Shown: one piece after another, positions 28,288 through 29,488 of the stretch
Layout of the letters: each line of letters begins with the position of its first letter
Position numbering within the stretch: position 1 is the first letter of the stretch
Origin: an uncultured Alphaproteobacteria bacterium
GTDB taxonomy: Bacteria; Pseudomonadota; Alphaproteobacteria; RF32; CAG-239
Direction: 5' to 3'
Length of the DNA stretch: 64,000 nucleotides
NCBI GenBank assembly: GCA_944391475.1
Contig: CALXTR010000001.1
Location: 124,001-188,000 of the forward strand
Translations under genes and position numbers: made by a program
The notes under the pieces: model-generated
The model's database searches: none
The model's input: only the letters and a program-made list of their open reading frames with translations
Told to the model about the DNA's origin: nothing

Positions 28288-28944
28288 ATGAAGAGAAAAC
28301 CACCTGCCGCAATTGATGAAGACTGGATGACTACCTATGGTGATATGGTTACTTTGCTATTGTGCTTTTTTGTGATGATGGCAGGTGTTTCCAAAATTGA
28401 TGCGGCTTTGTTTGAGCAGATTCAGGCTGGTATGAACGAAGGGGTAGGTAAACGCGATGTTCAGCGGCCGATTGAGATGATGCTCGTGGAGCTAACTGAT
28501 GATATCCAGTCTTTAAGTGTGGGTAATGAGGTGGCTTTGGGAACAGATTCTCAAGGAGTGCAATTATCATTTGATGGAGATTTCCTGTTTGATTATGGTT
28601 CAGCTACTTTGCGGGAGCAGGTAATTCCGGTGTTGAAAAAGGTGGCGGCAACTTTGAGTGCGGAACGTTATAATTCTTTTAATTTTGAAATTTCCGGGCA
28701 TACCAGTGACCAAGATTTTAGCAGTCCCCAATTCCCGTCAAACTGGGAGTTATCGGCGGCGCGCGCAGCGGCAGTAGTTCGCTTTTTTGAGAGCCGAGGA
28801 ATTCCTCGAATTAGACTTAAGGCGGTGGGGTTGTATGACGTTGCGCCCAAATATCCGAACCGGGATCGCGATAATGTGCCGATACCGCAAAATAGGGCAA
28901 AAAATCGTCGTGTAGAAATTATGATTATTCCTTCATTTAAGTAA
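28288..28944 (+). CDS. motB: MotB-type stator protein with OmpA peptidoglycan-binding domain (pair 1)
   Basis: One N-terminal membrane helix carries the ion-binding aspartate in TTYGDMVTLLLCFF. The C-terminal OmpA/MotB domain (about 90-215) shows FEISGHTSDQD, NWELSAARAAAVVRFF and QNRAKNRRVEIMI, which anchor the stator to peptidoglycan. The 218 residues make it somewhat short. A good ribosome binding site (AAGGAG) overlaps the motA stop region. Confidence 0.92.
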   Translation: MKRKPPAAIDEDWMTTYGDMVTLLLCFFVMMAGVSKIDAALFEQIQAGMNEGVGKRDVQRPIEMMLVELTDDIQSLSVGNEVALGTDSQGVQLSFDGDFLFDYGSATLREQVIPVLKKVAATLSAERYNSFNFEISGHTSDQDFSSPQFPSNWELSAARAAAVVRFFESRGIPRIRLKAVGLYDVAPKYPNRDRDNVPIPQNRAKNRRVEIMIIPSFK

Positions 28945-28945
28945 T

Positions 28946-28975
28946 AAAAAAAGTGCCGATTTCGGCACTTTTTTT
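28946..28975. terminator. Bidirectional terminator between motB and the HTH gene
   Basis: AAAAAAAGTGCCGA and TCGGCACTTTTTTT form a near-perfect hairpin with a two-base tip. It serves motB on the plus strand. The minus-strand gene at 28977 ends at its edge. Confidence 0.88.
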
Positions 28976-28976
28976 A

Positions 28977-29240
28977 TTAATCAATTTTATGAATGGGATA
29001 TGAGTTCGGATTGCGGCGGACTAACTCAATGTTGATATCAACATCATAAAGTTTGAGCAAACGGCGCAAGTGCTCCCAGCCGGCAAAACGTCCAATTTCG
29101 GCAGCATCTACACGCTTGCTATCAACTCCGCTGAGATGTGCAACTTGTCGGAGGCGAATGCCATATTCCCAACGCAATTTCATTAGTTCAAAACCAACGG
29201 CGCGGCCGATGTCTTTGGGGGTGATTTTTTTGATAATCAT
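28977..29240 (-). CDS. Small XRE-like helix-turn-helix protein
   Basis: The 87-residue protein looks like a lone HTH domain. LRWEYGIRLRQVAHLSGVD has the spacing of XRE-type helices 1-3, and KLYDVDINIELVRR ends the domain as in Cro/CI-like proteins. It is very basic, as expected for DNA binding. There is no ligand domain. The start ATG 29240 is preceded by GGAGC, which can be hidden by pairing with the leader (see 29246-29401). Targets are unknown. It lies downstream of slt on the same strand. Confidence 0.65.
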   Translation of the reverse strand: MIIKKITPKDIGRAVGFELMKLRWEYGIRLRQVAHLSGVDSKRVDAAEIGRFAGWEHLRRLLKLYDVDINIELVRRNPNSYPIHKID

Positions 29241-29245
29241 AATTT

Positions 29246-29401
29246 TAGCTCCTGTTTTGGGTTAAAACAAAACCTCCTTTGTGAAAAGGAGGTGGAGCTA
29301 ACAAACTGTACACAAAAACAGTCCTGCTTCTTCGTTACAAAAGTGTACTTATTCCGCAGACTCCACCGACAGGTGGATTATTTGTGTAAGATGTTTGTTA
29401 G
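29246..29401 (-). ncRNA. Structured leader RNA (switch-like) before the small HTH gene
   Basis: Read on the minus strand, several helices are visible. GTTTGTTAG/CTAACAAAC (plus coordinates 393-401 with 298-306 of the 29-kb block) stacks on TTTGTGTA/TACACAAA (381-388 with 309-316), 17 bp in all. TCCACC/GGTGGA forms an internal hairpin (362-377). GTACAC (308-313) can instead pair with GTGTAC (343-348). ACCTCCTTT/AAAGGAGGT (272-293) followed by T-rich sequence makes a terminator. TAGCTCC/GGAGCTA (246-252 with 294-300) would hide the Shine-Dalgarno of the HTH gene. Several pairings exclude one another, as in attenuators and riboswitches. No known RNA class was recognised. Confidence 0.6.
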
Positions 29402-29488
29402 ACACCACAGCCTATCTCTAAACTGCGATTGTCAGCTTAAAGCAATTGCACAAAAATGCAAGCGGAATTTTGAGAGAATAATGCTAAT

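Follow-up and report, generated by a model that had tools for sequence, protein, structure and literature searches.

A Conserved Two-State Leader RNA of Gut Alphaproteobacteria with Likeness to sRNA-Xcc1

The Locus

The window analysed here, a stretch of 64,000 nucleotides from an uncultured alphaproteobacterium, carries on its minus strand a leader RNA (about 29426-29241) flanked by a lytic transglycosylase gene and by an ORF for an 87-aa HTH protein of the XRE type (28977..29240, minus strand), whose match to HTH_31 is weak. The AlphaFold model of this protein (pLDDT 86) gave C.BclI, HipB and C.AhdI as top PDB matches, with E-values of about 0.002 to 0.007, and its predicted XRE fold would resemble C-proteins and HipB. 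A predicted promoter of the sigma-70 type, TTGCAT (29461-29456) / TAAGCT (29439-29434), stands upstream on the same strand (29434..29461) and is kept between paralogues; among all leaders collected, a promoter-like motif was found 5' of 224 out of 309, versus 54 of 309 shuffled upstream sequences. At the other end of the HTH gene, positions 28942-28979 hold a strong bidirectional terminator hairpin common to this gene and to an OmpA/MotB-like one, and weak Rfam scores for STnc40 and STnc370 are explained by this hairpin.

Helices of the Leader

The leader RNA of the window has a predicted fold of -56 kcal/mol (z = -3.8), and equally stable folds occurred in 2 of 200 shuffles. All its parts lie on the minus strand. 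As read from the sequence, it opens with a 5'-terminal hairpin, P0 (CAGTTTA-GAGA-TAGGCTG, 29408..29425), the stem of which differs between copies while the hairpin itself is retained in most of them. A second hairpin, P1a (GGTGT[CTAACAA]ACATC, 29390..29406), presents arm a, which is also the 5' arm of helix P1, as its loop; it covaries with GGAGT/ACTCC, and its third pair is T-A in 44 sequences and A-T in 28. Arm a (CTAACAAAC, 29401-29393) and arm b (TTACACAAA, 29389-29381) make up a putative decoy or target-mimic arm, U (29381..29401), which pairs through extensive compensatory change with the arms b' (TTTGTGTA, 29316-29309) and a' (GTTTGTTAG, 29306-29298) of a putative antisense arm, C (29298..29316), which covaries in the same way. 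The resulting helices P1 (9 bp, CTAACAAAC with GTTTGTTAG) and P2 (8 bp, TACACAAA with TTTGTGTA) are the 17-bp interrupted helix that had been proposed in an earlier note on this DNA.

Between both arms we find the P3 hairpin (TCCACC-TGTC-GGTGGA, 29362..29377) and the P4-P5 arm (29321..29361), in which P4 and P5 covary around a conserved internal loop, GGAATAAG / CGAAGAAG. The GGTGGAG strand has two partners, an upstream TCCACC in P3 and a downstream CTCCACC in an alternative helix, P6 (29291..29367), where GGTGGAG (29367-29361) pairs with CTCCACC (29297-29291). The CTCC of P6 doubles as anti-Shine-Dalgarno (anti-SD) and adjoins the stem of the intrinsic terminator (ACCTCCTTTTCACAAAGGAGGT plus TTTTGTTTT, 29264..29293), whose base overlaps P6. 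The Shine-Dalgarno (SD) of the HTH gene (CAGGAGCTAA, 29245..29254) is the partner of this anti-SD, in a helix of TTAGCTCC against GGAGCTAA around 29254-29245. P6 competes in this way with P3, with the terminator base and with the SD. The terminator hairpin and the helix hiding the SD had also been read correctly before, whereas P0, P1a with the 5' arm of P1 as its loop, and P6 are additions of the present analysis. A further GTACAC/GTGTAC helix, regarded then as one of the alternatives, can indeed form in the window but is kept in just 3 of 244 leaders, and we consider it incidental.

Covariation and Conservation

Copies of the leader have in common P0, P1a, P1, P2, P3, P4, P5 and the terminator. 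A covariance model, R1, was built from a seed of 26 hand-aligned copies, with gaps in the seed sequences replaced by N. Across this seed the pairs are retained through two-sided changes, with 94.8% of them paired and a covariation of 0.529, compared with 0.157 after shuffling. In 88 copies aligned with the model, most of them outside the seed, 92.7% of the pair cells are paired and covariation reaches 0.717, versus 0.202 when shuffled and at most 0.10 with slid partners, in an alignment that was fitted to the model and hence leans towards structure. Two-sided changes affect all the pairs of P2 and the middle of P1. Out of 30 copies, 22 to 30 retain any given P3 pair, and across the 88 the helix is kept in 90% of cells. 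The alternative helix is also preserved, with a mean of 6.77 contiguous P6 pairs in a leader, compared with 5.18 (sd 0.10) after exchanging partners among leaders. Within the P4-P5 internal loop both sides change together, from GA..TAA in most copies to GG..GAA in 19 of the 19 copies that have GG. The terminator stem is paired at 99.8% in the 88 copies, with a T-rich tail in 97%. A GGAG occurs at most 60 nt from the leader in 199 of 246 cases, and its helix with the anti-SD spans 5.82 bp compared with 5.52 (sd 0.06) for swapped sequences.

A syntenic orthologue in a sister species (L009; 82% identity over 3.1 kb) offers a closer comparison. Its promoter, SD and gene start are nearly unchanged, with similar flanks and coding sequence, whereas a/a', b/b', P4 and P5 are all altered; through matched changes, pairing persists in P1, P2 and P4, and P5 has become shorter. 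Covariation of this kind does not separate pairing inside one molecule from pairing between copies of the leader. Judged from all these comparisons, the leader is a real and conserved two-state RNA, and the suggestion of a switch-like leader with mutually exclusive pairings is borne out by alternatives that covary and that are kept in relatives.

Regarding its class, searches with Rfam gave no family at threshold, and in the window just chance-level matches. That the leader belonged to no known class therefore stands as far as the Rfam cut-offs go, but its 3' half resembles sRNA-Xcc1 (RF02221) weakly and repeatedly, as described below. A T-box, suggested by GGTGGAG, a type III toxin-antitoxin system and an attC-like element were also weighed on reading the sequence and dropped, there being no Rfam hit, repeat array, endonuclease gene or cassette context. 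Literature searches for a leader of the window type gave no relevant description, and one paper (PMC11109978) mentions neither Alphaproteobacteria nor HTH.

Copies and Host Range

The leader had been taken for an isolated element tied to a lone DNA-binding protein, and neither part of this picture holds. A DNA search of the same genome revealed five further full leaders with 71-77% identity, each between unrelated genes and preceding a small HTH gene (truncated in one of them, L003), and two additional partial matches that turned out to be full copies. With R1, the E-values of which are rough, there are 15 leader copies in this genome, and matches in at least 110 of 152 genomes of the family and, in a sample of the class, in at least three genomes of two other families. 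Four high-copy genomes contain 63, 32, 24 and 24 leaders. The named records with leaders are metagenome-assembled genomes of uncultured gut and rumen Alphaproteobacteria. An exact-pattern scan of 2.9 million viral contigs found no leader of the window type. As for the genes behind the leaders, at least 60 of 106 downstream proteins match an HTH model (E up to 0.1) and eight match BspA-type LRR, so that genes other than HTH are also found there.

Such a dispersion could suggest a selfish or mobile repeat unit made of a promoter, a structured RNA and a small DNA-binding gene, with a fold that serves spreading and with regulation as a secondary effect. A genome has indeed 15 to 63 autonomous copies, scattered among housekeeping genes that are unrelated, and both lone and tandem leaders occur. 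However, no transposase was seen beside the copies of the window's own genome, the pattern is missing from the viral contigs scanned, one orthologue is syntenic across species, and leaders stand in correct SD register 5' of different gene families. We consider this explanation quite unlikely.

Tandem leaders were observed at eight loci (L021, L063, L081, L099, L138, L278, L324 and L358), some of which lack an ORF and have a promoter of their own; both leaders of L358 have the same arm b and different arms a.

Likeness to sRNA-Xcc1

The covariance model of RF02221 can be aligned over its full length to the 3' half of one leader (L092), with 32.6 bits and an E-value of 0.0003 in 241 nt. The consensus fold of the family corresponds to P6 around P4-P5 plus a second hairpin, and its single strand to a' of the leader; arm C of the leader corresponds to the second hairpin loop plus the single strand of RF02221. 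Matches to leaders were found in 20 of 29 relatives and in none of 14 control genomes, all of them under the cut-off. In the window's own genome, RF02221 matches three paralogues (on contigs C10, C25 and C7) at the coordinates given by R1. Scores range from 22.9 to 29.5 bits for own-genome paralogues and up to 46.7 in relatives; the gathering cut-off of 53 bits was reached by no copy found in the family, and the window copy itself gives no match.

Both RNAs share a closing P6 helix around two hairpins, as indicated by the alignment to the model and by the covariation of P6, P4 and P5, and a similar P4-P5 internal loop, AUACAA..GGAAUA in sRNA-Xcc1 and AUAUAAG..CGAAUAAG in the window leader. They are also alike in a second hairpin bearing b', which is short and mostly invariant in the leader, in a single-stranded a', and in a decoy arm on the 5' side that matches a' and b'. 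In contrast, the terminator of the leader follows C, where that of sRNA-Xcc1 loci separates U from C, there is no target T at the SD, and the element is chromosomal, amplified and placed 5' of XRE or surface genes. For leaders of the window type, complementarity of the SD region to b' (3.96 versus 3.94 swapped) and to a' (4.26 versus 4.27) gave no signal of a T. A locus in the genus of the window organism (L183) shows a U-C-T layout 5' of an XRE gene, which links the sRNA-Xcc1 form with the fused leader form.

In a sample of Proteobacteria, RF02221 scores above its cut-off in 39 of 399 genomes. The order at these loci is U, with a in a hairpin loop and then b, followed by an intrinsic terminator, by C, which is the sRNA-Xcc1 domain, and by a target T that surrounds the SD. 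The terminator after U was found in 20 of 30 loci, compared with 2 of 30 when shuffled. The arms show a complementarity of 8.67 and 6.83 nt to their own upstream U, versus 5.74 and 5.33 nt when swapped, and of 5.97 and 6.60 to their own downstream T, versus 4.98 and 4.69. A set of 90 RF02221 loci from viral contigs displays the same trend for U and T. The genes behind them encode Bro-N, P22_AR_N, KilA-N, pRha and SymE proteins, and in phages Aaphi23 and Rac-SA53 the element precedes the annotated antirepressor (ant). It has also been located 5' of symE in integron cassettes (PMC12444791). In our collection, the sRNA-Xcc1 elements of Proteobacteria and prophages (L196-L225, L394-L513, L514 and L515) lie 5' of antirepressor or SymE genes, with arms matched upstream and at the SD.

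These comparisons indicate that sRNA-Xcc1 is a C4-like antisense domain located before SymE genes and the antirepressor genes of phages, and that its sequence complements both a decoy arm on its 5' side and the ribosome site of the gene. We met no earlier description of this U-terminator-C-T layout in the literature consulted, which treats sRNA-Xcc1 mainly as a virulence-related sRNA acting in trans; here it appears as the antisense domain of antirepressor and SymE loci.

A Possible Relative of Phage RNA Immunity Modules

Three phage systems help to interpret the leader. C4 is an antisense repressor of ant (PMC5320573; PMC12197685), and the C4 RNA of phages P1 and P7 (RF01695) has, like the leader, two specificity arms in an antisense RNA just upstream of the controlled gene. 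Among six RF01695 loci inspected, 3 to 4 have matching arms on both sides. Unlike C4, the leader does not pair to the SD region through its arms, and a search with the C4 covariance model gave no matches in four genomes of the family (G000, G002, G005 and G161). IsrK of the Salmonella prophage Gifsy-1 is a leader with two folds, the short form of which flips in trans its own inactive read-through mRNA, as proven experimentally (PMC4825925). The leader shares with IsrK two exclusive folds, a terminator, pairing of upstream and downstream strands and, as predicted for the leader, a dominant inactive form; one of the folds hides the SD, in a competition of P3, P6 and SD from which we infer the direction of control. 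The two differ in that IsrK works by translational coupling to anrP, and in that the action in trans proven for IsrK is one that we infer for the leader. The P4 CI RNA, with seqA and seqC, is a parallel to IsrK (PMC4825925); as in the leader, an antisense RNA is complementary to both its flanks and termination is premature. This likeness is drawn from the published description of P4 CI, from which the leader differs in having no T.

The sequences show that U and C covary in their pairing and that C can fold differently through P6; they also show where terminator and anti-SD lie, that C resembles sRNA-Xcc1, that the copies are dispersed and that their arm pairs are nearly private. The repeated distant matches of RF02221 and the RNA-RNA architecture of sRNA-Xcc1 loci speak for control through base pairing, as in C4, IsrK and P4. 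The leader is probably related to RNA immunity modules of the phage type, in a streamlined form carried on the chromosome; it would be OFF by default, with U paired to C, and ON when U or C is captured. In the ancestral form, that of sRNA-Xcc1 and with the layout of C4 loci, U and a terminator would have been followed by C and by T, where the SD of an antirepressor gene lies; in the derived leader, U (a,b) and C (a',b') would have been fused in about 110 nt, with the terminator after C and with T lost. In the OFF state, pairing of U with C (P1+P2+P3) would leave CTCCACC free, allowing formation of the terminator and masking of the SD in any read-through transcript. Capture of U or C would let C adopt its sRNA-Xcc1-like fold, with P6 hiding CTCCACC, weakening the terminator base and freeing the SD. 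By analogy with IsrK and P4 CI, the likeliest captor would be a second RNA whose arms match, for instance one from a phage or a leader that has been terminated.

Calculations with ViennaRNA, which leave pseudoknots aside, place the U:C rod about 8.5 kcal/mol below the P6 fold (128 leaders, intermediate ending before the terminator). Because of this difference the default state is predicted to be OFF, and leaving it would take either a strong trigger or kinetic effects during transcription. Besides this stability of the rod, other points count against a relationship with immunity modules: RF02221 does not match the window copy and stays under its cut-off for every copy found in the family, C4 gave no matches in the four genomes searched, T is missing, and the P4-P5 internal loop is more conserved than antisense pairing alone requires. 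If the relationship is correct, an apparently orphan leader would be tied to the RNA-based immunity of temperate phages, and a module of phage type would have been domesticated in gut Alphaproteobacteria and amplified there, up to dozens of copies in their small genomes.

Regulated Genes and Arm Codes

A rumen genome of 1.5 Mb (G161, loci L314-L373) has 63 leaders, most of which stand 5' of genes for BspA-like or secreted proteins, with pilin-like proteins and PhrR-like regulators behind some of the others, possibly as a large regulon of surface proteins. These data bear on autogenous control, in which the HTH protein would bind its own leader and shift the P3/P6 balance. It would fit the single-domain XRE proteins that make up most of the downstream genes (at least 60 of 106 matching an HTH model), but most of the about 60 leaders of the rumen genome precede BspA-like, secreted or pilin-like proteins, and near-identical HTH proteins are found behind leaders with different arms. 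We regard such feedback as very unlikely.

The arms themselves vary within a genome. Among 73 pairs of leaders with the same b in one genome (at most one mismatch), 72 differ in a, with 66.7 expected and a permutation p of 0.005, uncorrected for relatedness. In a second genome (G005), 51 pairs of copies with HTH proteins at least 95% identical have coding sequences that are 94% identical and b arms that are 38% identical, and in none of the pairs are both arms shared. On these figures, arm pairs seem nearly private inside one genome and arms appear to diverge faster than the genes controlled, which suggests, indirectly, a pressure for private codes, hence some action in trans.

A different origin for the fold would be a metabolite riboswitch of a new class, with a P1-P5 domain that uses the P4-P5 loop as a pocket for a small molecule and sets the choice between P3 and P6. 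The conserved loop with both sides changing together, control by terminator plus SD, a multi-gene regulon with surface proteins and tandem leaders are all in keeping with it. Nevertheless, a similar loop is present in sRNA-Xcc1, an RNA of phage antirepressor and integron symE loci (PMC12444791), a shared ligand leaves unexplained the P1/P2 divergence between near-identical gene copies and the near-private arm pairs, and no single pathway emerges from genes for XRE, BspA-like LRR, pilin-like and secreted proteins. A riboswitch is in our opinion unlikely, and the earlier idea that the leader senses a small molecule is probably not supported.

Returning to base-pairing control, a bolder and rather doubtful extension is that leaders form an RNA self-recognition system in one cell, each with a near-private two-part code (a,b), so that any effect of its terminated RNA in trans would be confined to the locus that made it, or to a phage entering the cell with an identical code. 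If so, dozens of surface proteins and regulators could be under independent or mutually exclusive control, in what would be a domesticated phage superimmunity serving gene switching. If the arms act in trans, they would represent a set of orthogonal RNA switches that evolved in nature.

Two minor observations complete the picture. Divergent leaders (L178, in the window's own genome at C8:26397-26544, and L057, L081, L333 and L334) precede in several genera a longer XRE regulator, which we take to be PhrR-like, and this site is possibly an old location of the element. Moreover, seven contigs of G005 (C15, C23, C26, C27, C28, C35 and C51) begin just 3' of a leader, in or near the HTH gene, and these starts are assembly breaks at near-identical gene copies.
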